From an uncultured archaeon (GTDB lineage: Archaea > Altiarchaeota > Altiarchaeia > IMC4 > SCGC-AAA252-I15): 64,000 nt of DNA. The notes beneath the pieces were generated by a model. That model saw nothing but the letters and a program-made list of their open reading frames with translations. It was not told the DNA's origin and did not search any database. Made by a program: the position numbers and the translations under genes. How positions within the stretch are numbered: the first letter of the stretch is position 1; each line of letters opens with the position of its first letter. The stretch spans positions 1 to 64,000 of the forward strand of contig CABMCB010000018.1 in NCBI GenBank assembly GCA_902384455.1, given 5' to 3'. Shown here piece after piece: positions 2,796 through 54,954 of this stretch.

Positions 2796-3932
2796 CTATT
2801 TTGCTGAGTACTTAAAAGTCTGACCGCTTTTGCGCCGAGACAGAAGTTGTTTGTCGTAGAGCGCCTTAAGCTCGCGGGTGACGCGCTCAGGCTTCTCCTT
2901 TATTTTCCGGGCCACGTCCTTGGGGGAAAGCTCTGCGTTCACCCTAAGCACGCTCATTATTTCGCGCTGAATCGTGGTTAACGAGGCGACTGGTGCGGCT
3001 TCTACTTCTGCGAAGCCGTGCTCCTCCTTTAGGAAGTCTTTGCATTCGTCGCAGTAGTACTGGTTGTCTACGGTCCAGTTGAGCCACCGGATTTTTCCGC
3101 AGCAGAAGCATACGCTCTCCAAGGGGAAGGAGCTTGGAGTGAGCGCCGGTGACTGAGGCACCTCAATTGATACGCCGCTTTCAAGGGGCAATGCAGGCGC
3201 CTGACCTAATTCAGGCAAACCGGAATCCGGCATCATAGGCTGCGGACCCGGCGGAATGAAACTGAACATGTCTTGGGAGCCAGCCTGCATTCCGACGTCT
3301 TGCATTTGAGGCTCGCAATTGAACCGCCCCCCGTCAAGGGGCATAGAAGGAACCGAATTCAATATGTCGCCGCCTAACGCCGCGGAACTCTCTTCGATAA
3401 AGGGCATTTCCGCCGGCTTTTCGACTTTAGGCTGAACTACGGACTCATCTTCGCTGAAACGCGCCTGAAGAGTCTGAGTGAAATACCCCGCCTCAGCCGC
3501 ATCAGACGCGCCGTAAGGCACATCAATACGAATGGTGTCGTAAGGGTGTATGTCTATGTCGTAAGTCAGATAATACTCAAACACGCGGCTTTCACCAGCC
3601 AAAAGGCACGCTGCGTCAGTAAGCTCCCCCAAAAGGTCATAACCCCTCGTCACCCCATAATGCCTGCGGCCGGCAAGCATAGGTAGGTCTTCCTTGGTTT
3701 TATTGCGCAGCTCCACCGGGTCCAAAAAGCGCACAAGCCTTAAAGACGGCTTGACGAACTGGCTTTTTTTGCCGCGATTCACAACCTTAAGCTCAAGTTT
3801 GCCCGCGTCTTTGTCGTAAACTAAATTTTCGACCTTTATTGACGCCTTCCGCGCACGGCGTTTCTGGTATATGACGGCCGCCGTAGCAAGTGAGGCAGCG
3901 GCGCTAAACCATTTAAGGTCGTCAAAATTCAT
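2796..3932 (-). CDS. Membrane-anchored protein with Zn ribbon and C-terminal winged helix
   Basis: I do not recognise this family. The 378 residues show a short N-terminal hydrophobic segment (about 7-22) followed by basic residues (KRRARK), as in a membrane anchor with cytoplasmic remainder. A beta-rich domain of about 150 residues follows, then a Pro/Met/Gly-rich linker (about 170-270). A treble-clef or ribbon-like Cys cluster comes next (C275-x2-C278 and C294-x2-C297), then a winged-helix-like end (about 318-378, [22 protein letters not shown]). The order suggests a membrane-tethered DNA- or RNA-binding protein; that role is inference. It is flanked by ilvC and the BioD/DRTGG gene on the same strand. 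Confidence 0.7.
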
Positions 3933-4033
3933 TCTGGGGATTCACACGGGGGTGGTGGGTAAAGAAAGAATAGAGAGGGGGAGTATAAAAATTATTTAAG
4001 GATTACGGCGGGCGAAGCCTTCTTATGCGCGCG

Positions 4034-5113
4034 TTATAGTTTGGGCAGGGAGAATGCGGCGGAGAATTCCTTGAGGTTTATGTGTTTTCGCAGGTGGTTT
4101 TTGAAGTACGCGAGCTTTTCTTTGTCTGTTATGCTAAGGCGGGTCAAAAGGTGTTCCGTGATTTGCACTGTCTCGAAGGTGTTTTGAGGCACGAGTATCG
4201 TGGGGATGCAGCATTGCTGGGCTCTGGCCAGAACCTGCGATGTGGGCGGAACGTTTCCTGTAAGTATTAGGCATTGAGTGGGCGTCTCCATCGCGGTCAT
4301 AAGCAAGTCGCTTCTGTCTGCGCCGGTTATTACCGCTTTGTTGACTGTCCTGCGGAAGTACTTCATAGCATAAGCGGGAGACATAGCTCCCACCACGAAT
4401 GAGCCGACCGTCCGGTCAAGACAGTTTTGGCCGGTGAGCACTTGGCCTCCAAGCCGCTCCAGTATGGCGGAAACTGACACCAGCCTCAATTTGGGGTCCT
4501 GCGGCAAAACGCCCAGGACGCTTATTTTCTTGGATTTCAAAAAGGGCACGATGGTGCCTTTGACGTGAGCCATCTGGTTCTTGGGCACGTCGTTTATTAT
4601 TACGCCCGCAAGAAGGTTCTTTCCGAACGACTGTATGAGCTTCTGCGCAGAAAGTATCCTATCAACCACATAGTCGTTGTCGTAGCGGGAAACCAAGAGA
4701 ATGCGGGCCTTAAACTGCAGTGCGATTTCGGCTTCCGAGAGTCCTGCCATTAGGCCGCCTCCTGTGGTTCCTGCGCCTTCTATTAGTACGACGTCTTTTC
4801 CTTTGGATATGCGGGAGTATGCTTCAGTCAACGCTTTTTTGGGGTTCTTTTTTCCCGTAAGTACTCCTTGGATTAGGTCGGGTGTCAGGCGTATTGGGGA
4901 TATGTCTGATGTGTCGGCGGTGAGTTTTAGGAGTTTTTTGACTTGGGATGCGTCTTGGTCGACTAGTTTGCCGTTTTCTTCTATCAGCCGGTTGCCCAGT
5001 GGCTTCATGTATCCTACGGAGAGTTTTCGTTCGGTCAGAAGGTGGCTTAGGCCCAGCGAGAATGCGGTTTTCCCCGAGTATTCCTCCGTGGAGGCGATAA
5101 CTATTGGCTTCAT
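4034..5113 (-). CDS. BioD-like P-loop / DRTGG domain protein (Pta N-terminal-like)
   Basis: 359 residues in two parts. The N-terminal BioD/CobB-like P-loop domain (residues 1-200) has the nucleotide loop EYSGKTAFSLGL and VLIEGAGTTGGG. The DRTGG domain (about 210-320) contains VITGADRSDLL. This pair forms the N-terminal half of long bacterial phosphotransacetylases, where it is thought to be regulatory. The catalytic PTA domain is absent, so it should not be called a phosphotransacetylase. It is divergent from acetyl-CoA synthetase with only about 200 bp between them, so a role in sensing or regulating acetyl-CoA metabolism is plausible but inferred. Confidence 0.8.
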   Translation of the reverse strand: MKPIVIASTEEYSGKTAFSLGLSHLLTERKLSVGYMKPLGNRLIEENGKLVDQDASQVKKLLKLTADTSDISPIRLTPDLIQGVLTGKKNPKKALTEAYSRISKGKDVVLIEGAGTTGGGLMAGLSEAEIALQFKARILLVSRYDNDYVVDRILSAQKLIQSFGKNLLAGVIINDVPKNQMAHVKGTIVPFLKSKKISVLGVLPQDPKLRLVSVSAILERLGGQVLTGQNCLDRTVGSFVVGAMSPAYAMKYFRRTVNKAVITGADRSDLLMTAMETPTQCLILTGNVPPTSQVLARAQQCCIPTILVPQNTFETVQITEHLLTRLSITDKEKLAYFKNHLRKHINLKEFSAAFSLPKL

Positions 5114-5138
5114 GGGGCGTAACCTATTAGTGGGGGCG

Positions 5139-5149
5139 TATAAATAACA
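5139..5149 (-). promoter_or_regulatory. TATA-like element for the BioD/DRTGG gene
   Basis: Read on the minus strand this is GTTATTTATAC, centred about 31 nt upstream of the ATG at 5113. That spacing fits an archaeal promoter giving a leaderless or nearly leaderless mRNA. The facing acs gene has its own A/T-rich box near 5243-5256 and a possible SD (GGTTGATG) just before its ATG. Confidence 0.5.
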
Positions 5150-5314
5150 GGCGTAGTTAGCGGCTTTTTAGGGGTGTTGTGGGGCTTTTTCTTGGGGGGA
5201 GTGTGGTGCATGCGGAAATATCGGCAAACGCCGAATTTTTTGGGATATTTTTAAGTCAATGACCTTATCATTAAAATCTCGAATCATACACAGGCAACGT
5301 GTGGTTGATGTAAA

Positions 5315-7279
5315 ATGACAGACAAAACAATTCATTCTATGATGGATGAGAAGCGAAGGTTCGCTCCTGCAGAATACAAGCTGACTCCGGCTCACGTCAA
5401 GAACAAGGAAGAGTACGACAGGATGTACGAGGAGTCCATTAAGAACCCGGAGTCATTCTGGACTAAGCAGGCGGAGGAAATCGCCTGGTTTTCTAAGTTC
5501 AAGAAGGTCCGCACTTGGGACCACAGCAAGATTAAGTCCACCTGGTTTGAGGGAGGAAAGCTTAACGTTTCATACAACTGCCTTGACCGCCATTTGAACG
5601 GCCCCCGGAAGAATAAGGCGGCGATAATCTGGGAGGGGGAGCTTCCCGGCCACAACAGGACGCTTACTTACCAGGAGTTGCACAGGGAAGTGTGCCGTTT
5701 CGCAAACGTCTTGAAGAAGAAGGGCGTCAAAAAAGGCGACCGCGTCTGCATTTACCTGCCCATGATTCCCGAGCTGCCGATTGCCATGCTTGCGTGCGCA
5801 AGAATCGGAGCCATCCACAGCATAGTGTTCGGAGGGTTTTCAGCCGAAGCTTTGCGCGACAGGATTCAGGATTCCACCGCATCTATGGTCATAACCTCCG
5901 ACGGAAGCTATCGCCGAGGAAAAGTCATCCCGCTTAAGGACAACGCAGACAAGGCCATCGTAGACTGCCCGACAGTCAAAAGCATGATCGTCGTCCAGCG
6001 AGCCAACGCCCCAACGTCGATGAAGGAAGGCCGCGACAGCTGGTTCCACGATGAGATGAACGCGGACGACATAAAGAATTACTGCGAGCCGGAGCACATG
6101 GACGCCGAGGACCCGCTGTTCATCCTCTACACGAGCGGGACGACGGGGAAACCCAAAGGCGTGTTGCATACGACAGCAGGCTACCTCCTTTATGTCACTT
6201 TGACGACCAAATACATTTTCGACGTCCGCGAAGAAGACACGTTCTGGTGCACCGCAGACATAGGCTGGGTCACAGGACACAGCTACATCGTGTACGGCCC
6301 GCTGTCTAACGGAGTTTCTTCGCTCATGTTTGAGGGCGTGCCAAACTTCCCCAAGCCCGACCGCTTCTGGGAGGTCGTCGAGAAATACAAGGTAAACGTA
6401 TTTTACACTGCGCCAACCGCGATACGCGCCATGGCCAAAGACGGCGACCAGTGGCCAAACGGCCGCGACCTGTCTAGCATACGTCTTTTGGGCAGTGTTG
6501 GTGAGCCGATTAATCCTGAGGCATGGATTTGGTATCATAAGGTCATCGGGAAGGAGAAGTGTCCGATTGTGGATACTTACTGGCAGACTGAGACCGGCGG
6601 AATCATAATTACTCCCATTCCTGGCGTCCACACGCTTAAGCCCAGCAGCGCCAACAGGCCGTTCTTCGGAGTTCAGCCGATTGTGGTGAAGGAGAATGGA
6701 CAGCCCGCCGACGTAAACGAGGGCGGATATTTGTGCATCAAGGAGCCTTGGCCGGGTATGATGAGGACGGTTTACGGGGACCACCAGCGTTTCGTAGACA
6801 CTTACTGGACTACGTTCAAGCCGTATTATTTCACGGGCGACGGAGCCCGCATGGACGAAGACGGCGACTTCTGGCTTATGGGCCGAGTCGACGACGTCAT
6901 AAACATCGCAGGCCACCGCCTGGGCACAGCCGAAGTCGAGTCGGCGCTGGTTACGCACCCTAAGGTCGCTGAGGCCGCAGTCGTTCCTATGCCCGACGAC
7001 ATAAAGGGGCAGGGATTGTACGCTTACGTCATCCTTAAGGAAGGCAACAAGCCGTCCGACGAACTCAAGAAGGAGCTGGAGAACGTGGTGCGGAAAGTCA
7101 TCGGTCCCATCGCTAAGCCGGATAAAATCCAGTTCGCTGACGCTTTGCCGAAGACGCGAAGCGGGAAGATTATGCGCCGCATACTGAGGAAGATTGCGGA
7201 GGGCGCAAACGAAGTGGGCGACACGACGACTTTAGCCGACCCGCACGTGGTTGAAGTCCTGCTTAAAGGAAGGCAGTAA
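5315..7279 (+). CDS. acs: Acetyl-CoA synthetase (AMP-forming)
   Basis: Activates acetate with ATP and CoA through acetyl-AMP. The length of 654 residues is normal for Acs. The adenylate-forming signature [11 protein letters not shown] is at about 272-282, [10 protein letters not shown] at about 420-430, [16 protein letters not shown] and the hinge [13 protein letters not shown] at about 510-535. [11 protein letters not shown] at about 611-621 contains the catalytic lysine that is acetylated in regulated family members. The [12 protein letters not shown] region suits acetate rather than bulkier acids. An OFA-type transporter gene follows after 3 bases, so uptake and activation of a small carboxylate may be coupled. 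Confidence 0.96.
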
Positions 7280-9318: not shown

Positions 9319-9954
9319 TTAAGTTCTTTGTTTTGTCTTTTTAACCATCTTAAGCCGGAAGAAGTTTTCGCGCTCCATCTCCTCCAGGCGCATCCGGATG
9401 TATTTTTGGGTCGCCTTAAGGCGCGGAAGCACTATGTACTCCAGTGCGTTCACGCGGCGCTTAGTCTTCTTTATTTCAGCGGAAAGCCGCCTTAAAGTTT
9501 CCTCGCGCTCGGCAAGAACAACGGACTTGCGCAAAGCCTCGTTGAATTCCTTGTGGGCGGCATCGATGTGGCTTTCGGTCACTGCGAGGCTGTAAGAGGG
9601 GCGGTTGGGGTTTCTGCCGAATTCCACGTCTATTTTGGGCACTCGCACTCCCATGATGTTTCCGTAGCTGATTATTGGCTTGGGCATGGGGGGCGCGGCG
9701 TCCGCGGCGTCTTCAACGGTCGCTATTCCAGATAGAGCTTCTGCGGCTGCGAGGTCCCTCAATCCTTTTTCAAGAGTATCTGAAACTTCGCCTCTTATTC
9801 CGCGCGCCGCTTCCGCGCTCTCAAAGAACTCCAATACGAGTGCGTCGCGCTTTTCCTTAAGCAGCTTGTGGCCTTTCTCGGCTATTTTGATGCGCTTCTT
9901 CATTGAGAGGAGTTCCATCCTTGTGGGGTGGACTCCTTCGACTATGTCGGCCAT
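9319..9954 (-). CDS. atpD: A-type ATP synthase subunit D
   Basis: Central-stalk rotor subunit that couples ring rotation to the A3B3 head. The 211 residues show the two long coiled-coil arms of the family. The N-terminal VHPTRMELLSMKKRIKIAEKGHKLLKEKRD and a C-terminal TKRRVNALEYIVLPRL helix are hallmark segments; the middle is a short Ala/Pro-rich hairpin. The start abuts the stop of atpB. Confidence 0.93.
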   Translation of the reverse strand: MADIVEGVHPTRMELLSMKKRIKIAEKGHKLLKEKRDALVLEFFESAEAARGIRGEVSDTLEKGLRDLAAAEALSGIATVEDAADAAPPMPKPIISYGNIMGVRVPKIDVEFGRNPNRPSYSLAVTESHIDAAHKEFNEALRKSVVLAEREETLRRLSAEIKKTKRRVNALEYIVLPRLKATQKYIRMRLEEMERENFFRLKMVKKTKQRT

Positions 9955-11436
9955 CTATTTTTTCTTTGAGGCCGCCTTTGTTTTTGCGGCGGCTTTTTCT
10001 TTTGTTTTCTGCGCATTCTTTTGCGGCTCTTGCGGGAGTTTTGTTTCTTCAGTTTTTTTCCTGTAGGCGGGATGGTATTTGTCTATGAATTCCTTCCTTA
10101 TCCGCTTCAGGTCCCGTTCGGAAAGTATTGACAGGAGTTCCCAGCCGAGGTCGAGAGTCTCCTTGATGCTTCGGTCTTCCTCGCGCTCCTGATTTATGAA
10201 CTCGTCCTCGAAGCGTTCGGCGAACTCAAGAAACTTCTTGTCCCTCTCAGACAAAGCCTCCTCCCCGACGACAGCAACAAGGTCCCTTAGGTCGCGGCCT
10301 TCCGCGTATGCGGCGTACATTTGGTTGCTTACTTCTTTGTGGTCTTCTCTTGTTCGGTCTTTTCCTATTCCTTGGTTCATGAGTCGCGAGAGGCAGGGTA
10401 GTACGTCGATTGGGGGGTAGATTCCTTTTCGGTGCAGGTTTCTTCCGAGGACTATTTGGCCTTCCGTGATGTATCCTGTTAGGTCTGGTATTGGGTGCGT
10501 TATGTCGTCGTCCGGCATCGTTAGGATGGGGATTTGGGTTATTGTGCCGGGTTTTCCTTTGATTCGGCCTGCTCTTTCGAATGTCATTGATAGGTCTGTG
10601 TAGAGGTATCCGGGGTATCCTCTTCTGCCGGGTACTTCTTCGCGGGCGCTTGATATTTCACGCAGTGCCTCGCAGTAGTTTGTCATGTCTGTGAGTATGA
10701 CGAGTATGTTCATTCCGCATTCGAACGCCAGGTATTCTGCGACTGTTAAGGCTATTCTGGGCGTGATTATGCGTTCTATTGTGGGGTCGTCTGCGAGGTT
10801 TAGGAACATTACTATTCGTTCGAGTGCGCCTGTTCTTTCGAAGTCGCGCTGGAAGAACTGCGCCTCCTCCGCGGTGATTCCCATTGCGGCGAACACTACG
10901 GCGAACTCTCCGCCTTCAGTTAGCACCTTCGCCTGACGCGCAATCTGCGCCGCCAACTCGTTGTGCGTAAGCCCTGCACCGGAGAAAAGCGGGAGTTTTT
11001 GGCCGCGAACCAGCGTGTTCATTGCGTCTATCGCCGATATTCCGGTCTGGATGAATTCGCGGGGGAACTGTCTTGCGGTGTGGTTCATGGGGTACCCGTT
11101 TATGTCGAGGCGGACTTCAGGTATCACTTCTGGTTTGCCGTCGCGGGGGCGCCCTGCGCCCGAGAATATTCGGCCGAGCATCGTCTTTGACACCGGCACC
11201 TTGAATGTTTCACCTAGGAAGCGCGCCTTGGTGACTTGCGTGTCCAAGCCGTCGGTTCCCTCAAAGACTTGTACGACGGCCTTGTTTGTTGAGGCCTCAA
11301 GGACTTGGCCTGTGCGGCGTTCGCCTGTGGAGAGTTCTATTTCCACGACTTCGCCGTAGGCTACGCCGCTTACGTTTTCCACTATCATGAGGGGGCCGGA
11401 CACTTCTCCTACCGAGCGGTATTCTTTGACTGCCAT
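9955..11436 (-). CDS. atpB: A-type ATP synthase subunit B (non-catalytic)
   Basis: Regulatory nucleotide-binding subunit of the hexameric head. Its 493 residues include the degenerate P-loop region [20 protein letters not shown], where catalytic subunits have [19 protein letters not shown] and [18 protein letters not shown] are typical of B subunits. The last 35 residues are a Lys/Ala/Glu-rich tail ([12 protein letters not shown]...[11 protein letters not shown]), longer than in many homologues. It lies directly between atpA and atpD. Confidence 0.96.
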
Positions 11437-43593: not shown

Positions 43594-45399
43594 TCATGCT
43601 TTGTCTGTTAGGTTCAGTTGCGGGTAAATACACATTCCCATTAGCTCGTTTATGAGCAGCTTAAACGCGTACGCGACTTCCACTGGATACGTCGGAATGT
43701 CGCCGCACTGCGGGCAGTAAATGCGTTTGTTCACGTAATCAACCTCCGCTACTAGGCCGCATTCGCTGCAAATGTGGATTATGACTTTGTCGGACTCGTC
43801 CAAGAGGCGGTCCTTAAGCATCATGCTTGCGCCGTGCCCGATTAAACAGTCTCGCTCCATCTCTCCGAAACGCAAACCACCCTCGCGGGCTCGCCCCTCG
43901 GTCGGCTGACGCGTAAGCATCTGAACCGGACCGCGGCTTCTGGCGTGCATCTTGTTTGCGACCATGTGGTGGAGCTTCTGGTAGTATATGACGCCGATGA
44001 ATATGTCGGCCTCTATTTTCTGGCCGGTTTCGCCGTCGTAGAACGCTTCTTTTCCATTGTGCCTGAAGCCGTGCTTCTCAAGGTCTTCCCTCAGGTCGTC
44101 TTCGCGTTCCCCCTTGAATATGGTGCTGTTGATGAAACGCCCCTCCATGCTGCCGACCTTGCCGCCTATCATCTCTAGGACGTGGCCGACCGTCATACGA
44201 GACGGGATTGCGTGCGGGTTTATTATGAGGTCTGGGACTGTGCCGTCCTTGGTGAAAGGCATGTCTTCATGCGACACTATGAGGCCGACGACTCCTTTTT
44301 GCCCGTGGCGGCTGGCGAATTTGTCTCCCAATTCGGGAACTCGCAGGCTTCTGACTCGGACTTTAGCTAGCTTGTTTTTCTCCAACGTCTCAGTTAGCAC
44401 GACGCAGTCCACAACTCCGGATTCCATGTGGCGGACTGTGGTGGACGTTTCACGGCGCATCTCCTCGATGAGGCCGTAAGGTCCGATTTCCTCTAGGAAG
44501 CGCGGGGGGCTTGTCTTCCCGATTAGGACTCCTCCGCTTCCGACGTAAACTTCGGGCAACGTCAGGCCGTCAGGCTCCAAGTTGCCGTATGTCTCCTCGC
44601 CTTGAACGCCTTCAACGTTTTCGGTGGGAACCTCAAACTTGTCTTTCTGGCCGCTTGGGTACCCGCGCTCTTCGCTCGTGTACGTGCGATAGAATGTGCT
44701 GCGACCTAGGCCGCGCTCTATTGAGCTTTTGTTGAGTATGATGGCGTCCTCCATGTTGTAGCCTTTGTAGCTCATGACCGCCACGACGAAGTTCTGGCCT
44801 GCTGGGCGGTTGTTGTAGTCGAGTACGTCTGTAACGTCGGTCTTGACTAGGGGAGACTGCGGGTAGTGGAGAACGTTTGCCCGGCTGTCGAAGCGCTGGA
44901 AGAAGTTGGACGAATAGAGCCCTAACGTCTGCTTGGACATGGCTGCCGCCATTGTGACTCTGGGGCTGCTGTTGTATTCAGGGTAGGGGGCGAATCCGCT
45001 GCTTACTCCGAGTATGACGCTGGGAGTCACTTCCAGGTGAGTGTGCTCTTCCGTGAGTTTGTCCAAGTAGAGGGATACGTAAGCGTTTTCCTCTTCTTCG
45101 GCGTCCAAGTACTCTATGATTCCCTGCTTGATCAGGTCTTCCCAGAGTATTTTCCCGCTCCTAAGCTCCTTAACCTGTTGCTCAGACAAGAGGGGCTTGC
45201 CGTCTTTGACTACTATGAGGGGGCGAAGCACCCGACCTTTGTCGGTATAAATCTGGACTTCGTTGTTTTCCTCCGAGTAGGTGATTGCAACAGAGTAGTT
45301 TATTTCTCCGCGGCGGCGGAAGTCGCGCAGACGCCCAACCAGCTTCTGAGGCTGACTGTGCTCGCCAATTAATCGGCCGTTAAGGTATACGCCAGTCAT
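43594..45399 (-). CDS. rpoB1: DNA-directed RNA polymerase subunit B' (C-terminal half of RpoB)
   Basis: 601 residues. [45 protein letters not shown] and [18 protein letters not shown] are the conserved hybrid-binding and clamp blocks. The C-terminal zinc ribbon is [22 protein letters not shown]. The split from B'' occurs at the site common in methanogens and some DPANN archaea. Confidence 0.98.
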
Positions 45400-45404
45400 T
45401 TTAG

Positions 45405-46838
45405 TTATACGCCAAATTCGTGAAGGTATTTCTCGACGGCTTTCTCGTCGATTTCAGGTGAAATGACAGAGCCCACTGCTAGGTTCTTTACGAGCCCGCA
45501 GTTCTGCCCTTCAGGAGTCTCGTTGGGGCATATGCGCCCCCACTGCGTCGCGTGAAGGTCTCGAGCTTCGAAGTGCGGGTGACTCCGTGACAGGAGACTT
45601 GATACGCGGCGGCGGTGGGCAATTGACGCCAGGTGGTTGGTTCTGTCCAATACTTGGCTTACCCCGCTTCTTCCGCCGGTCCAGTTTCCTGTCGCAAGAG
45701 CGTAGTTGATTGACTCAGTCAGGTTGTTTGAGCGGACAGCAGTCTTGATGTTGACTTGCCTGTGCCGAGCATGCTGCTTCTCCAGCTGGTACTTGATGTC
45801 GCGGCTGATTTTGTTGAAACTGACTCTGAACAACTCCTGCATGAGGTCTCCGGCAAGGCGCAACCGCTTGTTGCTGTAATGGTCCTTGTCGTCCGGCTCC
45901 CTCTTATCCAAATCAAGGTCTATGACCTTCTGCGCCATAATGGCAAGATACCTCGCCTTGGCCTTCCGGTCATCCTCGGTGTTGCCTATGTGCGGGAGAA
46001 GGAAATTGTTTATGACCTGGTTGGCTCGAGTCGCCTGATACTGCTTGGCGTGGCCTGCGCCGGCCCGCTTACCCAAGTAATCGAATGCTTCCGCGCCCTC
46101 CATGTCCTTTAGTTCAAGGTTGAGTGTGACTTCGAGCTTGGCGTCGTCGTCGAACTGGTCGAGTATCTCGTCGGTGGTCATCCCCAACGCCTTCATTAGT
46201 ATTGTGAGGTTGATTCTGTTGGGTATGCCGGGGAAAGTGACAAACAAGCTTCCGCTTCCTGCGGTCTCCCTTTTTTCCACCGTCACGCGGCTTCTGAAGC
46301 CCTGCCTAACTGAAAAGACCTTTGCCACAACAACGTCTTTCCCGGCTATAGTCTCCTTTGTGGTGACTATTCTGTTGGGAGCAAGGTCCTCGACGATAAT
46401 GAGGCTTCTCTCGGTCCCGTTTATTATGAAGTATCCGCCCAAATCCTCAGGGTCTTCGCCGGATTCGATCAACTCCTGACGAGACAACCCATGAAGCATG
46501 CAGATGTTGGAGTCCAACATTACCGGCAGATAACCCACCTCCACCTCAACGGACTCGCCATTCTGCTTGAACTCCAAAAGAATTGGAGCGCTATAAGTAA
46601 GGTTTCTAAGACGGCACTCAAAAGGCGACCGGGGAACAGGCCCCTCACCGGACTCGTTCACACGGGGACTCCCCACGCGAATCTTGCCCAACTCAAGAGC
46701 ATAATCAGGAATATCAATCTCCAACGCGCCTTTCTCGTCAATGACCTCCTGAAGGCCGCGTTCTATAAGCCAGTTGTAGCTGTCCAGTTGAAAGCGAGTC
46801 AAATCCTCGCGTTTAACGAAATCTTGTATGCTAAGCAC
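45405..46838 (-). CDS. rpoB2: DNA-directed RNA polymerase subunit B'' (N-terminal half of RpoB)
   Basis: 477 residues covering protrusion and lobe. [40 protein letters not shown] and [33 protein letters not shown] are diagnostic. The gene ends before RpoB' after five bases and follows rpoH. Confidence 0.98.
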
Positions 46839-47255: not shown

Positions 47256-48554
47256 ATGACGACCATAATACTCGGCGGAGGACTCGCCGGCCTCTCTCTC
47301 GCACACTTCCTAAAAGACGATTCGATAGTGTTGGAGAAAGAGGAGCAGACAGGCGGCTTATGCAGGAGCTTCCAGCTGAACGGCGTGTCCTACGATGTCG
47401 GTCCGCACATTATGTTCTCAAGAAACCACGTGGTTCTTGATGAAATGGTTTCTCTGGTTGAGACAAGCAGAATAAAGAGGTCCAACAAGATTTTTCATAA
47501 AGGCCGTTTGGTGAAGTATCCTTTTGAGAACGATTTGGCTGCGCTTGAGCCGGCGGAGCGCGATTATTGCCTTAAGGAGTTTTTGAGCAACCCTTATGAG
47601 GGTTATGGCGCTGGGAACATGCTCCATTTTTTCCTTAAGACGTTTGGCGAGGGGATTACGAAGCTGTATCTTCAGCCGTATAACGAGAAGATTTGGAAGT
47701 TCGACCCCGCTTTCATGGACACCCAGATGGTTGAGCGCATCCCCAAGCCGCCTAAGGAGGACATCATAAAGTCCGCGCAGGGTGTGGAGACTGAGGGCTA
47801 CGTTCATCAGCTTTACTTTCATTATCCGAAAAAGGGGGGGATACAATGCCTCGTTGATGCGTACAGGAATCTCGCTTCTAAGAAGGCGAAGATAGTCAGT
47901 TCCGTGAATATTCGCAAGATAGGGAAGGATAAGGGCGGTTGGATTGTTGAGACGGACAAGGGACGTTTCAGCGGGAAAACACTAATCAACTGCATGCCGC
48001 TGCACGAACTATTCCAGTACATTGAAGCGCCCGACGAGATAAGGAACACCCTTAATGAACTGAAATACAACTCCCTCTACACGATAACTGTGCAATCCAA
48101 GAAAGACAACGCCGGCGACAACTTCGCGCTCAACTTCGCAGACAAAAACGTCGTATTCCACAGGATTTCAAAGCTGAATTTCCTCGGGAAAAACTACTGC
48201 CTGCCAAAAGGCGGCTCCACAATAATTGCGGAAATAACATACCGACCCGAAAGCTACCTGGCAGGATTCACCGACGAGGAAATTAAGCAGAAGGTGCTGG
48301 ACGACCTTGAGGCCTTGAAGTTGGTGAAGAAAACGGACGTCACTGCGGTAGAGCTTAGGAAGTTCAAGTACGCATACGTTATATACGATTTAAGCCACAG
48401 GAAAAACGCTGCCAAAGTACTGCAATACCTAAAGGGTATTGGCATACGGTGCTGCGGCAGATTTGCCGAATTCGAGTATCTTAACATGGACCAGACGATA
48501 GAGCACAGCCATAATTTGGCCGACGAATTCAACGGGGTGTCTCATGGCGGATAA
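47256..48554 (+). CDS. FAD-dependent oxidoreductase, UDP-galactopyranose mutase/protoporphyrinogen oxidase-like
   Basis: 432 residues with an N-terminal FAD-binding motif (IILGGGLAGLSLAHFL) and EKEEQTGGLCRSFQLNGVSYDVGPHIMF. This combination is common in amine-oxidase-like flavoproteins of sugar clusters related to UDP-galactopyranose mutase. PYNEKIWKFDPAFMDTQMVERIP is a further shared block. No membrane segment. Start of the glycan cluster; the substrate is unknown. Ends overlapping the glycosyltransferase by 11 bases. An A/T box (ATATAAAAGG, 47235-47244) is close upstream. Confidence 0.78.
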   Translation: MTTIILGGGLAGLSLAHFLKDDSIVLEKEEQTGGLCRSFQLNGVSYDVGPHIMFSRNHVVLDEMVSLVETSRIKRSNKIFHKGRLVKYPFENDLAALEPAERDYCLKEFLSNPYEGYGAGNMLHFFLKTFGEGITKLYLQPYNEKIWKFDPAFMDTQMVERIPKPPKEDIIKSAQGVETEGYVHQLYFHYPKKGGIQCLVDAYRNLASKKAKIVSSVNIRKIGKDKGGWIVETDKGRFSGKTLINCMPLHELFQYIEAPDEIRNTLNELKYNSLYTITVQSKKDNAGDNFALNFADKNVVFHRISKLNFLGKNYCLPKGGSTIIAEITYRPESYLAGFTDEEIKQKVLDDLEALKLVKKTDVTAVELRKFKYAYVIYDLSHRKNAAKVLQYLKGIGIRCCGRFAEFEYLNMDQTIEHSHNLADEFNGVSHGG

Positions 48555-49242
48555 AATCACGGTTTCTGTTGTTATGCCGAGTTTTAACGAGGAGGAGGCT
48601 ATTGGGCGGATGATTGAGAGCATCAGGGAGAACACTAAGGATTTTGAGACGGAGATTTTGCTTGTGGATTCCAGCAAGGATAGGACTCCTGAAATCGCAA
48701 GGCAGATGGGCGCCAAAGTTATCGTCCAGCCGCCTCAGGGCCATGGAGTGGCGTTGAGGACTGCCATATCCAGTGCTTCAAACGACGTTATTATCACATC
48801 GGACTGCGACAACACTTATCCTATGGAGTACATCCCCAAACTGGTTGATTTAGCGGTTAATGAGGGGTACGACGTGGTTTCCTGCAACAGGCTGACTAAG
48901 GAATTGGGGAAGCAGATGCCTTTCACAAACAAAGTAGGGAACACCTTGTTTGCGACGTTAGTCCGAGTTCTGTATGGAGTGAAAGTTCACGACGTAAGCA
49001 CCGGAATGTTCTGCCTGCGCCGCGACGCAGTAAATAAGATGACGTGGGAAACCAACTACTCTTTCCCGTGCGAGCTGATACTAAAGTCTGCGCGCGCAGG
49101 ACTCAAACACAAGGAAATAGACATCCCGTATAGGATAAGAATCGGCGAAGTCACCCTGAACAAGTGGAGAAGCGGGAAAGCTTACATCCTGTGCATTTTC
49201 AAATATAGGTTTAATCTCCCCATTAATCCCAAGAAGCTTTAA
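48544..49242 (+). CDS. Family 2 glycosyltransferase (polyprenyl-phosphate type)
   Basis: 232 residues with the GT-A fold signatures: VVMPSFNEEEAIGRMIESI, LLVDSSKDRTPEIA and ITSDCDNTYPMEYIPKLVD, the DxD-like metal site. It resembles dolichyl-phosphate mannosyl/glucosyltransferases, lacking C-terminal membrane helices. It probably moves a sugar onto a lipid phosphate or glycan in this cluster. Confidence 0.85.
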   Translation: MADKITVSVVMPSFNEEEAIGRMIESIRENTKDFETEILLVDSSKDRTPEIARQMGAKVIVQPPQGHGVALRTAISSASNDVIITSDCDNTYPMEYIPKLVDLAVNEGYDVVSCNRLTKELGKQMPFTNKVGNTLFATLVRVLYGVKVHDVSTGMFCLRRDAVNKMTWETNYSFPCELILKSARAGLKHKEIDIPYRIRIGEVTLNKWRSGKAYILCIFKYRFNLPINPKKL

Positions 49243-49252
49243 AGAGTATACC

Positions 49253-50197
49253 ATGAAAATCCTGGTGACTGGGGGCGCGGGTTTTGTGGGAAGCCACCTT
49301 ACGGAGCATCTGCTTAAACTGGGCCACAACGTCGTTGCAGTCGACGACCTAAGCCTGGGAACCCTTGAGAACATACGTGGATTCGAAAAAAACCCGAGGT
49401 TCACTTTCATTAAGCTAAACCTTCTTGCCAAAAAACGCACAGAAGAACTTTTCAAAAAAAACAAATTCGACTGCGTATTCCACCTGGCCGCAAACTCCGA
49501 CATACAAAAAAGCAGGCTTTACCCCAGCATCGACCTCAAGAAGACTTTCATGACGACGTACAACGTGCTGGAGTGCATGAGGTCTGCGGGGGTTGAGCAA
49601 ATCGTTTTCACGTCCAGCTCCGCGATATACGGGGAGACCGACCAGCGAATACACGAAGATTTAGGCCCTCTTCTGCCCACGTCCTTTTACGGGGCGGCGA
49701 AACTAAGCTCTGAAGGATTCATCAGCGCGTTCTGCGTTAACTACGGCATAAAGGCGTGGATACTCAGGTTCCCAAACGTTGTGGGAGAGCGGGCTACTCA
49801 CGGCGTAGTCTACGACTTCGTCCGGAAGCTGAAGAAGAACCCGAAAGAACTTGAGATACTAGGAGACGGCAAACAGGAGAAACCCTACGCATACGTCAAA
49901 GACATCGTCGAAGGAATCATATACGCATGGAAACACTCCAACGACGACATCAACATCTTCAACCTTGGCACGCAAACCACCACCACAGTAACCAAAATAG
50001 CCCAAACACTCGTAACGGAAATGAACCTGAAAAACGTGAAGTTCAAGTACACCGGAGGAGACAGAGGATGGACCGGCGACGTGCCAAAATACCAATACGA
50101 CCTAACCAAAATCCACAAACTAGGCTGGAAAGCCAAACATAACTCCGACCAAGCAGTACGCACCGCAATAAAAGCCATCCTCAAAAACGGAAGATAA
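49253..50197 (+). CDS. NAD-dependent nucleotide-sugar epimerase/dehydratase
   Basis: 314-residue extended short-chain dehydrogenase: ILVTGGAGFVGSHLTEHLL is the NAD-binding motif, and the catalytic Tyr and Lys are in SFYGAAKLSSE after TSSSAIYGE. Closest in pattern to UDP-glucose 4-epimerase or UDP-glucuronate enzymes; the exact reaction is not readable. It may modify the heptose or another hexose made in the cluster. Confidence 0.85.
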   Translation: MKILVTGGAGFVGSHLTEHLLKLGHNVVAVDDLSLGTLENIRGFEKNPRFTFIKLNLLAKKRTEELFKKNKFDCVFHLAANSDIQKSRLYPSIDLKKTFMTTYNVLECMRSAGVEQIVFTSSSAIYGETDQRIHEDLGPLLPTSFYGAAKLSSEGFISAFCVNYGIKAWILRFPNVVGERATHGVVYDFVRKLKKNPKELEILGDGKQEKPYAYVKDIVEGIIYAWKHSNDDINIFNLGTQTTTTVTKIAQTLVTEMNLKNVKFKYTGGDRGWTGDVPKYQYDLTKIHKLGWKAKHNSDQAVRTAIKAILKNGR

Positions 50198-50202
50198 AAA
50201 CA

Positions 50203-51498
50203 ATGAAGGCCGTAATACTTGCGGGAGGGAAGGGAACGCGCCTGGGGGAACTAACCCGCAACGTACCCAAGCCGATGGTTAAAATAGGCGAAAAAACCCT
50301 TCTTGAACACAACATAAACCTCCTTACGAGGTACGGCATCAAAGACGAAATCATAATAACCACAGGCCACCTCGCAGACGCCATCGAAGACCACTTCAAA
50401 GACGGAAAAGAATACGGCGTATCAATAACTTACTACCGCGAGGAAACGCCGCTTGGGACGACAGGCGCACTCAAGGAACTTGAAGGCAAACTCACCCACG
50501 ACTTTCTGGTGCTCTCAGGAGACGTCCTGACGAACATGGACCTCAAACGGCTCATCGAATACCACAAGAAGAAAAAAGCCACCGCAACCCTTGTCCTGCA
50601 CCCAAACGACCACCCCTACGACAGCGACCTTGCGGAAATCGACGACGAAGGCAGAATCACCGCATTCATACCCAAACCCCACGACGACGGCAGACTCCAC
50701 AAGAACCTCGTGAACGCAGGACTCTACGTTCTGTCGCCCAACGCGCTTGGGCATATTCACCGCGGTAAAGGCGACTTTGGGAAAGACCTATTCCCCCGCC
50801 TAATCAAAACCGAACCAATATACGGCTACGTCACCACCGAATACATTAAGGACGCCGGAACGCCACAACGCCTTGAAGAAGTCACTGCGGCGTACGTAAG
50901 CGGAAAATCCGAGCGACGAAACCTGGAGCACAAGCAGAAGGCGATTTTCCTGGATCGAGACGGCGTAATCAACAAGGAAATAAACCTGCTCCACCGCAAA
51001 GAAGACTTTGAGCTTCTGCCCGGCTCGGCCGAAGCAATAAAGAAAATCAACCAATCAGACTACCTCGCCATCGTGGCGACTAACCAGCCGGTTGTGGCCA
51101 GAAACCTGTGCAGCATCGAGGACGTGAAGGGGATACACATGAAGATGGAGACGCTTCTTGGGGAAAAAGGCGCCTACGTTGACGCCGTATATTTCTGCCC
51201 GCACCACCCCGACAAAGGATACCCGGAAGAGAACCCGGCATACAAGATTGAGTGCTCATGCAGGAAGCCTAAGACCGGGATGATTGACGAAGCGGTTGCG
51301 GCATACAACATAGACCGCCATGAGTCATACATCATAGGAGACTCCCAACGCGACGTTCAATGCGGGAAAAACGCGGGACTCACCGCAATAGGCATAAGAA
51401 ACGCGTCATCAAGCCAACCCGTCAAAGAAGCGGACCACGTCTTCGAAAGCCTTAATGACGCCGTAGACTTCATCCTCGACAAAAAAAAACAAAGCTAA
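50203..51498 (+). CDS. Fused sugar-1-phosphate nucleotidyltransferase and HAD phosphatase (HddC-GmhB-like)
   Basis: 431 residues, two enzymes in one chain. Residues 1-235 are a nucleotidyltransferase (AVILAGGKGTRLGELTRNVPKP; metal Asp107 in LSGDVLT). Residues 246-431 are a histidinol-phosphatase-type HAD (FLDRDGVIN with D251/D253; GDSQRDVQCGKNAG) with the GmhB zinc loop CPHHPD...CSCRKPKTGM. In the GDP-heptose route GmhB removes the 7-phosphate and HddC activates the 1-phosphate. The fusion joins the last two steps, between the epimerase and kinase genes. The nucleotide used (GDP or other) is uncertain. Confidence 0.85.
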   Translation: MKAVILAGGKGTRLGELTRNVPKPMVKIGEKTLLEHNINLLTRYGIKDEIIITTGHLADAIEDHFKDGKEYGVSITYYREETPLGTTGALKELEGKLTHDFLVLSGDVLTNMDLKRLIEYHKKKKATATLVLHPNDHPYDSDLAEIDDEGRITAFIPKPHDDGRLHKNLVNAGLYVLSPNALGHIHRGKGDFGKDLFPRLIKTEPIYGYVTTEYIKDAGTPQRLEEVTAAYVSGKSERRNLEHKQKAIFLDRDGVINKEINLLHRKEDFELLPGSAEAIKKINQSDYLAIVATNQPVVARNLCSIEDVKGIHMKMETLLGEKGAYVDAVYFCPHHPDKGYPEENPAYKIECSCRKPKTGMIDEAVAAYNIDRHESYIIGDSQRDVQCGKNAGLTAIGIRNASSSQPVKEADHVFESLNDAVDFILDKKKQS

Positions 51499-51502
51499 GC
51501 TG

Positions 51503-51509
51503 ATATAAA
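51503..51509 (+). promoter_or_regulatory. TATA-like element before the HddA-like kinase gene
   Basis: ATATAAA is centred about 28 nt upstream of ATG 51534, in the 35-base gap after the fusion gene. It suggests an internal promoter giving leaderless kinase-gmhA transcripts. Confidence 0.45.
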
Positions 51510-51533
51510 CAGAAAACAAATAGACGACCGCCA

Positions 51534-52523
51534 ATGATAATCACAAAAACGCCCTTCCGCGTCAGCTTCGTCGGAGGAGGCTCCGACGTAAAAGAATTCT
51601 ACGAACAAAGCCCCGGAGCGGTACTATCCACCACCATAAACAAATACATGTACATAAGCTCCCACCGCTTCTTCGACGTAGACAAAATACGAGTCAAATA
51701 CTCCAAAACAGAAACCGCATCAAACGTAAACGAAATAGAACACCCCATAGTACGAGAAGTACTCAAAAAATTCAAGATAGAAGGCGCAATAGAAATAAGC
51801 TCAAACGCCGACGTACCCGCAGGAACAGGACTCGGCTCATCCTCATCATTCACCGTAGGCCTGCTGCACAACCTATACGCACGCCAAGGCAAACACACCA
51901 CAAAAGAAAAACTCGCAGAAGAAGCATGCGACATAGAAATAAGCCGCCTAAAGGAACCAATCGGCAAACAAGACCAGTACGCCGCCGCCTTCGGCGGACT
52001 CAACGTCCTCACATTCAGCCCGACCGGCAAAGTCGCAGTCGAACCCATCCACTTAAAAAAAGACACGTTCGAAGAGCTCCAGAAAAACCTCCTCATGTTC
52101 TACACCGGCGACCAAAGAAAAACTTCCGCCATACTTGAAGAGCAAAAGAAGAACATGCAGTCCGAAGACAAAGTAGAAACGCTCAAGAAAATGGTGGCGC
52201 TCGTAGGGGAACTCAGAAACGCACTATACAACGGAGACCTCAACGAATTCGGACAACTACTCAACCAAAACTGGACGCTAAAACAAAAACTCGCCTCCAA
52301 AATAACCAACCCACAAATAAACGCCCACTACGAAAAAGCCCTCAAAAACGGCGCACTAGGCGGAAAACTACTGGGAGCAGGCGGAGGAGGATTCTTACTC
52401 TTCTACTGCGAAGAAGGAAAACAAGACAAACTAAGAAACGCCCTCACCCCACTAAGAGAACTCACATTCAAATTCGACACAGAAGGAAGCAAAGTAATCT
52501 ACGTAGGTGACGAATATGACTGA
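51534..52523 (+). CDS. GHMP kinase, D-glycero-D-manno-heptose 7-phosphate kinase-like
   Basis: 329 residues of the GHMP family: ATP motif VPAGTGLGSSSSFTVGLL near residue 95 and the C-terminal LLGAGGGGFLLFYC. It has the RVSFVGGGSDVKEFYEQ opening seen in HddA and related sugar kinases. In the pathway HddA phosphorylates C1 of heptose 7-phosphate. The call rests on family pattern plus GmhA and GmhB-like neighbours. The gene is strongly A+C-rich. Confidence 0.82.
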   Translation: MIITKTPFRVSFVGGGSDVKEFYEQSPGAVLSTTINKYMYISSHRFFDVDKIRVKYSKTETASNVNEIEHPIVREVLKKFKIEGAIEISSNADVPAGTGLGSSSSFTVGLLHNLYARQGKHTTKEKLAEEACDIEISRLKEPIGKQDQYAAAFGGLNVLTFSPTGKVAVEPIHLKKDTFEELQKNLLMFYTGDQRKTSAILEEQKKNMQSEDKVETLKKMVALVGELRNALYNGDLNEFGQLLNQNWTLKQKLASKITNPQINAHYEKALKNGALGGKLLGAGGGGFLLFYCEEGKQDKLRNALTPLRELTFKFDTEGSKVIYVGDEYD

Positions 52524-53094
52524 CCCAGAAAAAGAAGCAGACAAATACCTCAAAAAAGTAGCCGACACCATAAACAAAATCGACCGCAAAAAAATAGCCC
52601 AACTAACAGACCTAATGCTCACAACATACCAAAAAAACGGCACAATCTACATATTCGGAAACGGCGGCTCAGCAGCAAACGCAAGCCACATGACAGGCGA
52701 CATAATCAAAGACTACTCATACGGCCGAAAAAAACGGTTCAAAGCCATCTGCTTAAGCGACAACACCCCCGCTTTGATGGCTTACGCCAACGACGTCTCG
52801 TATGAGGACGTGTTCGTGGAGCAGCTTAAGAATTTTCTGGATAAAGACGACTTGGTGATAGGCATCTCAGGCAGCGGAAACAGCATGAACGTCGTAAAGG
52901 CGCTGCTTTACGCCAAAGAGAAAGGGGCGAAAACAGTGGCCTTCTGCGGGTTTGACGGCGGAAAAATAAGGGGAATCGCAGACCTCGCCCTGCACGCTGA
53001 AATCAATGACATGGAAGTGTCTGAGGACGTGCACCTAGCCCTCGCCCACTGCGCAAAGCGAATTATCTCAAAGAAAATTCCGCCGGAAAAATAA
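52516..53094 (+). CDS. gmhA: Phosphoheptose isomerase (GmhA-like SIS protein)
   Basis: 192-residue sugar isomerase: converts sedoheptulose 7-phosphate to D-glycero-D-manno-heptose 7-phosphate. FGNGGSAANASHMTGD and GISGSGNSMNVVKALLYAK are the SIS signatures. Aligned to E. coli GmhA, the zinc ligands H61, E65, Q172 and H180 correspond to H58, D62, E170 and H178, so metal chemistry is plausible with conservative changes. Start at ATG 52516 (overlapping the kinase stop by eight bases), not GTG 52507. Composition changes from A+C-rich to balanced near 52750. Confidence 0.85.
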   Translation: MTDPEKEADKYLKKVADTINKIDRKKIAQLTDLMLTTYQKNGTIYIFGNGGSAANASHMTGDIIKDYSYGRKKRFKAICLSDNTPALMAYANDVSYEDVFVEQLKNFLDKDDLVIGISGSGNSMNVVKALLYAKEKGAKTVAFCGFDGGKIRGIADLALHAEINDMEVSEDVHLALAHCAKRIISKKIPPEK

Positions 53095-53109: not shown

Positions 53110-54021
53110 CTAACTTTGTAGGTACACCCACTTGAGCACGTCAGTTGACGTGACAATGCCCAGAACATTCTCTTCCTCCACTACGGGAAACCCGCCGAAA
53201 CCTGTCTCGTGAATCAAACGCGGCACAACAGACAAATCATCGTCAGGACTAACCGTAACAGGCTCAGACATGACCTCGCTGACGCGCGTAGACAAATTCT
53301 CCTCCGCGTTCACTCCCCTGAAATTACCCTTCTCAAGAAACTTCAGGACGTCAAAGACCGTCACAATGCCCGTCAGACGGCACTCCTGGATAACAGGAAG
53401 CCGCCTTAAACCATTTCTCACCATAACGCGGCTGACGTCAGACAACATCATTCCGGGAGTGGCCTCAATCAGCTTTGTGTTCATCACATCACCTACGGTA
53501 ACGCCAAAGTCCTCGCCGGAAGGCAAAATGTCGCGCTCAGTCACAATCGCCTCAACCCTCATGCTCTCAACGCTGTCAACCACAGGCAAACAACTGGTAT
53601 GCTTAGTGACAATAAAACGGATGACGTCCGAAACAGACTCCTTCCTCGTGACAAAACTCGCCTCAGACATAATCTTAGTAATAGGCGCATTAATCGCAGA
53701 AAGAAAATTCCCCCTATAATCCTCCTCAATAATCCTATACTTAGGCCCACCACCCAAGAAATCCAAAATACTAATCGCAGTAACAAGACCCAAAAGACGA
53801 TTAGTACCCGCATCAGTAACAGGCAACCGCCTAAAATCATGCTGACGCATAAGACGCGCAGACTCCAAAACAGACGAAGTAGGCCTTACCGAAACAACCT
53901 TCGTCTCGGCAACCTTCAGCACGTCGCTCTCCTTAATGTGCTTGTGGTGCGCTTTGGCCTCGTGAGCCCCCCGGTCAACCTTGCTCCTGTTGTCTGAAAA
54001 AGACGTTGGATTAGACTTCAT
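53110..54021 (-). CDS. Four-CBS-domain regulatory protein
   Basis: About 303 residues containing four CBS units: VVSVRPTSSVLESARLM, ASFVTRKESVSDVIRFI, LIEATPGMMLSDVSRVM and PVTVSPDDDLSVVPRLI, each with a following LPVV or FPVV strand. Two CBS pairs usually bind adenine nucleotides. The first 30 residues are basic and His-rich (AHEAKAHHKHIKESD). Start chosen at MKSNPTSFSDN (54021), after the aldolase stop. Co-directional with the ADTH synthase gene, so it may sense energy for that enzyme (inference). Confidence 0.85.
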   Translation of the reverse strand: MKSNPTSFSDNRSKVDRGAHEAKAHHKHIKESDVLKVAETKVVSVRPTSSVLESARLMRQHDFRRLPVTDAGTNRLLGLVTAISILDFLGGGPKYRIIEEDYRGNFLSAINAPITKIMSEASFVTRKESVSDVIRFIVTKHTSCLPVVDSVESMRVEAIVTERDILPSGEDFGVTVGDVMNTKLIEATPGMMLSDVSRVMVRNGLRRLPVIQECRLTGIVTVFDVLKFLEKGNFRGVNAEENLSTRVSEVMSEPVTVSPDDDLSVVPRLIHETGFGGFPVVEEENVLGIVTSTDVLKWVYLQS

Positions 54022-54041
54022 TTTGAAAATGAAAACACCCC

Positions 54042-54803
54042 TTACTTCTTGCTGTGAACCAACTCGCAAAGCTTGCGAGTCATCGCTGTCACATCATCAG
54101 CCTGAAACACGTTCCTGCCAATGCTAACGCCGGCAGCACCGGAATCCATAGCATCGCGAATCATCTGGAACAAAGCCTCGTCGCTGTCCACCTTAGGACC
54201 CCCCGCAATCACCACGGGAGCAGGACAACCCTCGACAACCTCCCTAAACGACTTCTTGTCGCCAGTATAAGGGCACTTAATGATGTCAGCGCCCAACTCA
54301 GCGCCCAAACGAGCCACATGCTTAACATACTTCACGTCAGTCTCACTCTTAACGTTGCGGCCGCGCGGGTACATCATTGCGATAAGAGGCATGCCGTATT
54401 CAGCGCAGTCCTCAGCAACCCTCCCCAAATCAAAGAGCATCTGGCTTTCGTTGTCTGCGCCAACGTTAATGTGAACGCTCACAGCGTCAGCCCCAAGCCG
54501 AACAGCCTCCTTGACGGTGCTCGCTAAAACCTTAGTGTTAGGGTCAGGACCGATGCTAGAACCAGCCGAAAGATGAATGATAAGACCAATGTCGTGGCCG
54601 TAGCCGCGGTGCCCATACTGCACCATGCCCTTATGCACTAGGACGGCATTAGCGCCCCCCTCCGCTATCTTGTTGATTGTCGCCGGAAGGTCCTCAAGAC
54701 CCCTGATGGGGCCGACTGTTACTCCGTGGTCCAAAGGCACAATAACGGTTTTCCCGCTCTTGCGGTCGATTATGCGCTCAAGGCGGACTTTCTTGCCAAT
54801 CAT
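54042..54803 (-). CDS. 2-amino-3,7-dideoxy-D-threo-hept-6-ulosonate (ADTH) synthase / class I aldolase
   Basis: 253-residue DhnA-type TIM-barrel aldolase. [37 protein letters not shown], the Schiff-base Lys region [15 protein letters not shown] and [15 protein letters not shown] closely follow the ADTH synthase group of methanogens. That group starts the alternative aromatic pathway and is related to fructose-bisphosphate aldolase. Which activity dominates here cannot be told. Start at [12 protein letters not shown] (54803), about 28 nt from a TATA-like box at 54825-54838. Confidence 0.85.
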
Positions 54804-54824
54804 ACTTAAACACCCCCGCTGGGA

Positions 54825-54838
54825 GGTTAATATTATCA
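54825..54838 (-). promoter_or_regulatory. TATA-like element of the ADTH synthase gene
   Basis: TGATAATATTAACC on the minus strand is centred about 28 nt before the ATG at 54803, a leaderless arrangement. It also supports choosing that ATG over the upstream one at 54839. Confidence 0.45.
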
Positions 54839-54954
54839 AACCACGCCCTTAAAACCCGCTTTAGAGGCATATGCGGCATTTCTACCGGCAGCAAAAAACA
54901 AAACACAAAAATCCGCTAAAAACGCCGTATACACCGGGTTTTACGTTCTTTTAA

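Follow-up and report, generated by a model that had tools for sequence, protein, structure and literature searches.

The nearest characterised relatives of the kinase, isomerase and phosphatase analysed here are found in heptose systems of the Campylobacter jejuni type. Campylobacter makes GDP-alpha-heptoses, and its UGM-like mutases, found in some C. jejuni GDP-heptose clusters, have been assigned to heptofuranoses (PMC10680097). Heptose-making enzymes and heptose in glycans have already been reported from archaea. NDP-beta-heptose enzymes were described by Tang et al. 2024 (as summarised in PMC11461863 and PMC11573728), and D-glycero-D-galacto-heptose was modelled in the pili glycans of Thermoplasmatales after the known glycan of T. 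acidophilum (PMC12448462). The enzymes of Tang et al. supply an activated heptose in archaea, but of the beta anomer and by way of an HldE-type kinase/nucleotidyltransferase. Searches of open-access literature yielded nothing on point about archaeal gmh genes and no paper on point about an HddC-GmhB fusion.

The locus described here is part of a 64,000 nt window (the whole stretch of DNA analysed) on contig C18 of a 2.41 Mb genome that is 92% complete. It has the four enzyme folds and the predicted order of chemistry of the C. jejuni set (Cj1424, Cj1425, Cj1152 and Cj1423), but differs from the C. jejuni-type system in that the last two enzymes are fused, the SIS isomerase carries E68D and Q175E, and the kinase falls in a separate clade.

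The operon and its enzymes

Six plus-strand genes (47256-53094), with gaps or overlaps of no more than about 35 bases, form an operon that is flanked on one side by archaeal rpoB′ and rpoB″ (43594-46838) and on the other by minus-strand genes (53110-54839). Its members are:

47256..48554, plus strand: UGM-like flavoprotein, candidate NDP-sugar pyranose/furanose mutase, 432 aa (Pfam GLF/Amino_oxidase)
48544..49242, plus strand: GT2, dolichyl-phosphate hexose transferase-like, 232 aa (NF041391 216 bits, cut-off 375; AglJ model 116 bits)
49253..50197, plus strand: SDR NDP-sugar epimerase-like protein, cassette member, 314 aa (Pfam Epimerase 183 bits)
50203..51498, plus strand: fusion of a nucleotidyltransferase and a GmhB-type HAD phosphatase, 431 aa (Pfam NTP_transferase 141 bits, plus HAD hydrolase)
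51534..52523, plus strand: GHMP sugar kinase, B type, 329 aa (Pfam GHMP kinase N and C domains; closest to heptose 7-phosphate kinases among characterised proteins)
52507..53094, plus strand: SIS sugar-phosphate isomerase, B type, 195 aa (Pfam SIS_2; fold of GmhA, with the changes E68D and Q175E)

The scores of rpoB′ and rpoB″ exceed the archaeal curated cut-offs, so the organism is an archaeon, as had been supposed from the sequence. An origin of the cassette by chance or artefact was ruled out by the strong family matches and by the position of the operon beside rpoB on one contig. The last three genes of the operon, encoding the fusion, the kinase and the SIS protein, are the three neighbouring plus-strand genes of the original prediction, which had them supplying all four steps of an activated-heptose pathway; this holds at the level of enzyme family and not beyond it. 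The nearest PDB structures to the UGM-like flavoprotein are eukaryotic UDP-galactopyranose mutases, and the closest structure to the epimerase-like protein is 8rdg.

The presence of phosphatase and nucleotidyltransferase in one chain was confirmed by Pfam, AlphaFold and Foldseek. The nucleotidyltransferase (NTase) occupies residues 1-232 and the phosphatase residues about 240-431, and the AlphaFold model shows two well-formed, confident domains (mean pLDDT 92, pTM 0.90). As predicted, the folds match HddC-type NTases and GmhB: Foldseek returned sugar-1-phosphate nucleotidyltransferases for the first half, including HddC (5xhw/6jq8), MurU and GDP-mannose pyrophosphorylases, and GmhB (2gmw/3l8e) for the second. 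Against the NCBIfam GmhB model NF006506 the fusion scores 160.6 bits, strong but under the cut-off of 178, and by family search, on which all genome-wide statements here rest, it is the only convincing GmhB of the genome (163 bits; next best 22.5). In an alignment of 27 fusions, the relatives of the window protein are 43-53% identical to it along its whole length. All 27 keep the NTase signature as well as the DRDG motif, the CxH..CxC zinc loop and RKP, and D251, D253, C332, H334, C351, C353, R354 and K355 of the GmhB half are likewise invariant. Among the nucleotidyltransferase models scored, the NTase half is not closest by sequence to HddC (87 bits), scoring 125 bits to MurU and 170 bits to mannose-1-phosphate guanylyltransferase, and the nucleotide and sugar are therefore not readable from homology. 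A possible analogue, for which the open-access literature gave no confirmation and on which nothing here is built, is a fused sugar-bisphosphatase/cytidylyltransferase of CDP-fructose synthesis.

The window kinase scores 165 bits to the NCBIfam HddA model (strong, but under the cut-off of 600) and 169, 135 and 134 bits to characterised HddA/WcbL. Residues R13, D22, SSS118-120, Q162 and D163, which WcbL requires, correspond to R9, D18, GLGSS, Q146 and D147 of the window protein, with R9, D18, Q146 and D147 invariant in alignment A1. The kinase-B profile gave 201-240 bits to heptose kinases versus 97 to fucokinase and 83 to galactokinase, and its scores ruled out a fucokinase, galactokinase or mevalonate kinase identity. 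The window kinase lies outside the clade of characterised HddA/WcbL, in a B-type clade (96/88) apart from 3k85, 4n3o and 4usk, and a roughly ten-residue stretch of heptose kinases is missing from kinase-B.

GmhA is the nearest relative of the window SIS both by sequence and by fold, with 90 bits to characterised GmhA and 117 bits to the NCBIfam GmhA model TIGR00441, strong but under the cut-off of 209. A grouping of kinase and isomerase with hexose enzymes or with other SIS/GHMP families, which would have counted as a refutation of the original prediction, was thus not found, heptose kinases and phosphoheptose isomerases being nearest. The zinc-binding and catalytic residues H64, E68, Q175 and H183 of GmhA (B. 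pseudomallei numbering) are H, D, E and H in the window SIS (the swapped residues being its D65 and E173), while T120 and D61 are G and N. Zinc-loop and catalytic residues had been described as intact in each part, which is correct for GmhB, NTase and kinase but not for the SIS, where E68, Q175, T120 and D61 are replaced. Among 65 B-type SIS proteins, E68 is changed to D in 64, Q175 to E in all 63 that align there, T120 to G in 61 and T170 to M in 59; H64, D98, S119 and S121 are kept. A-type GmhA proteins keep D61, E68, T120 and Q175 in 12/12 and have none of the swaps, and the two types split cleanly in the SIS tree (100/100). The window SIS is swapped at two key positions of the metal site, and on these residues it is no canonical GmhA. 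Crystals of the Q175E variant of B. pseudomallei GmhA contained sedoheptulose 7-phosphate poised before reaction, and the D61A and H64Q variants retain 6% and 14% of the activity (PMC5705639), so that the B-type swap is unlikely to be neutral; the paired E68D/Q175E change could preserve SIS function.

The window isomerase and kinase make up a subfamily of their own (B type), seemingly uncharacterised and with a heptose as its probable product; the open-access literature yielded no functional study of it. Since active-site differences are fixed across the subfamily of both enzymes, D-glycero-D-manno-heptose, the product named in the original prediction, is not established.

Canonical genes elsewhere in the genome

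The same genome carries a canonical GmhA on contig C63 (184 bits to B. pseudomallei GmhA, and 208 bits to TIGR00441, just under the cut-off of 209) and a canonical HddA on contig C11 (219, 217 and 203-205 bits to WcbL/HddA). These A-type proteins match characterised enzymes far better than the window SIS and kinase do, and with them present elsewhere, the window locus may encode another pathway, distinct from theirs.

Genes at 3757-11415 of C63 (L003) were named by sequence inspection, with transaldolase and transketolase also identified by family search. They encode GmhA, ribulose-phosphate epimerase, a split transketolase, DAHP and dehydroquinate synthases, transaldolase, a Gmd-like dehydratase and a reductase-like SDR, a run suggestive of an archaeal route to heptose or 6-deoxyheptose. 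The DAHP and dehydroquinate synthase-like genes (L003 6199-8285) occur besides an archaeal-type 2-amino-3,7-dideoxy-heptulosonate synthase in the window (54042-54839, above the curated cut-off), and the genome seems to have both. On C11 (L012), the canonical HddA gene (9405-10421) has a glycosyltransferase gene on one side and a methyltransferase-like gene on the other, and a multi-spanning flippase-like protein is encoded about 4 kb away (3923-5491).

Transketolase and transaldolase are present in this genome, so sedoheptulose 7-phosphate can be made; with canonical GmhA and HddA elsewhere and the fused GmhB in the window, some heptose route is likely in this archaeon. Heptose synthesis might then begin with two steps by the C63 GmhA and C11 HddA and end with two by the window fusion, the window SIS and kinase serving otherwise or being redundant. 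Both canonical enzymes exist (184 and 203-219 bits) and the search turned up no convincing GmhB besides the fused one, but the fusion travels with SIS-B and kinase-B rather than with the A-type pair, and a second GmhB may be missing from a genome that is 92% complete, making this division of labour decidedly improbable. A role of the enzymes in the beta (HldE) branch, with ADP-heptose as product, is scarcely credible. NDP-heptose enzymes are published for archaea, but family search gave no convincing HldE-type homologue in this genome: the best matches reach 86 bits for the kinase domain (cut-off 181) and 51 bits for the nucleotidyltransferase domain (cut-off 345), on which basis the branch was ruled out. 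The corresponding window enzymes are a kinase of GHMP type and a member of the NTP_transferase family.

Distribution of the cassette

Bacterial and archaeal genomes were scanned with kinase-B, and the counts that follow refer to the best 80 loci. These are mostly bacterial and come from Bacteroidota, Bacillota, Pseudomonadota, Verrucomicrobiota, Spirochaetota, Woesearchaeota and others. The NTase-GmhB family is found at 60 of the 80 and an actual fusion at 55, the SIS at 58 in one count and B-type SIS at 60 in another, fusion and SIS together at 48, relatives of the SDR epimerase at 43 and a UGM-like flavoprotein beside the cassette at about seven. The cassettes of a Woesearchaeota genome (L069, PFNQ01000013), Lachnospiraceae (L121/L122) and Bacteroidales (L070) have fusion, kinase and SIS as in the window, and cassettes of this kind often have its epimerase and sometimes the flavoprotein too. 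The fused relatives at 55 loci ruled out a fusion unique to this archaeon, and the view of it as an archaeal peculiarity has to be given up; the fusion is ordinary in bacteria, and the interest lies in what the B-type subfamily makes. Ten cassette genomes had no GmhB at the locus; eight of these have one elsewhere, and in two none was found in the genome either.

Longer fusions (595-722 aa) make up 25 of the 55. Four long ones were scanned with Pfam: L070 (8082-9998) consists of NTase, GmhB and a PRK/uridine-kinase-like third domain, and the extra part of L104, L125 and L132 had no Pfam match. At the kinase-B cassette of L058, a 771 aa protein (3246-5561) joins an NTase to a B12-binding radical SAM module, and at L141 (11921-13918) an NTase without GmhB is fused directly to a UGM-like flavoprotein. 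A GmhA-GmhB fusion occurs in the A-type set of another archaeal genome (L063 8595-9626).

In the kinase tree, the window groups with Woesearchaeota, Spirochaetia, Bdellovibrionales and Bacteroidota (100/98, 8 rows), and in the SIS tree with a similar group (100/99, 5 rows). The fusion tree joins the window weakly to L069 (81/71), and the argument for transfer rests on the kinase and SIS trees. As both proteins cluster with Bacteroidota and a Woesearchaeota, their phylogeny points to a cassette likely transferred between domains. Occurrence is patchy, since only 6/29 genomes of the same class have any such kinase, A or B.

Candidate products

The sequence tells directly which folds are present, that fusion and kinase have their catalytic residues, and that the genes form an operon and a conserved cassette. 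From these we infer the order of the steps, the alpha anomer, heptose, the nucleotide and everything after the NDP-sugar. The operon (47256-53094) would be a horizontally spread sugar-activation cassette in which the SIS protein isomerises a ketose phosphate, most likely sedoheptulose 7-phosphate, the GHMP kinase then phosphorylates the sugar at C1, the GmhB half of the fusion removes the far-end (C7) phosphate and the NTase half couples the sugar to a nucleotide. The epimerase and the UGM-like flavoprotein would then alter the NDP-sugar, perhaps into a furanose, before the GT2 would hand the sugar to a lipid carrier. A variant alpha-heptose (HddA/HddC-like) activation cassette, possibly yielding a furanose form and probably serving surface glycans, is on balance the reading we favour.

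Heptose is supported by the isomerase, kinase and phosphatase half, all of them nearest to heptose enzymes, and by the near-constant presence of a GmhB-type phosphatase with the cassette. A transaldolase-family gene is contiguous with the B cassette in two archaea (L058; L163/L174), and in a third (L055) TAL-GmhB lies about 6 kb from it. The transaldolase-family proteins linked to B cassettes at L058 (9668-10321) and L163 (660-1334) are divergent, with SLF[YW]GR in place of SPF[ILV]GR. Against heptose stand this divergence of the cassette-linked transaldolases, the SIS changes (E68D/Q175E and the other fixed ones), the scores of the NTase half (170 bits to mannose-1-phosphate guanylyltransferase versus 87 to HddC) and the two cassette genomes without GmhB. 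A genome with both an A and a B set also counts against it, because two routes to one sugar would be surprising. On the side of heptose, the only SIS_2 protein in each of five archaea is of B type (two of these genomes are 98-100% complete), leaving no canonical GmhA to stand in. A missing supply of sedoheptulose 7-phosphate in B-only archaea was dropped as a possible refutation, since transketolase and/or transaldolase occurs in 12/12 archaeal genomes searched and does not discriminate.

The same isomerase-kinase-phosphatase-nucleotidyltransferase logic might be applied to another ketose phosphate, for example to a hexulose phosphate or to a pentulose 5-phosphate, from which an activated aldopentose would result, with the flavoprotein making a furanose. 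The fixed active-site differences between the SIS clades (100/100), the ten or so residues absent from kinase-B, the UGM-like flavoprotein in the operon and the side-by-side A and B sets, expected if their products differ, all fit such a route. We consider it rather unlikely, as isomerase, kinase and phosphatase half are nearest to heptose enzymes, a GmhB-type phosphatase is nearly always present and transaldolase is linked in archaea; on a pentose version of the cassette, searches of open-access literature yielded nothing on point. We put forward only tentatively, as possible but not probable, that the B cassette is an uncharacterised cross-domain route to an activated sugar other than D-glycero-D-manno-heptose, with a GmhA-fold isomerase whose metal site is re-wired. 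The sugar made, perhaps a furanose, would in that case be a component of surface glycans in archaea and bacteria that has gone unrecognised.

Whichever sugar is made, the cassette separates two co-existing isomerase and kinase subfamilies that homology annotation tends to name alike, as GmhA and HddA, and thanks to its fixed active-site changes three proteins would suffice to put the question of substrate to a direct test. If the favoured heptose route is correct, an alpha branch with HddA/HddC-like activation would be added to archaea, for which the literature covered here gave only beta-branch enzymes and one glycan heptose.
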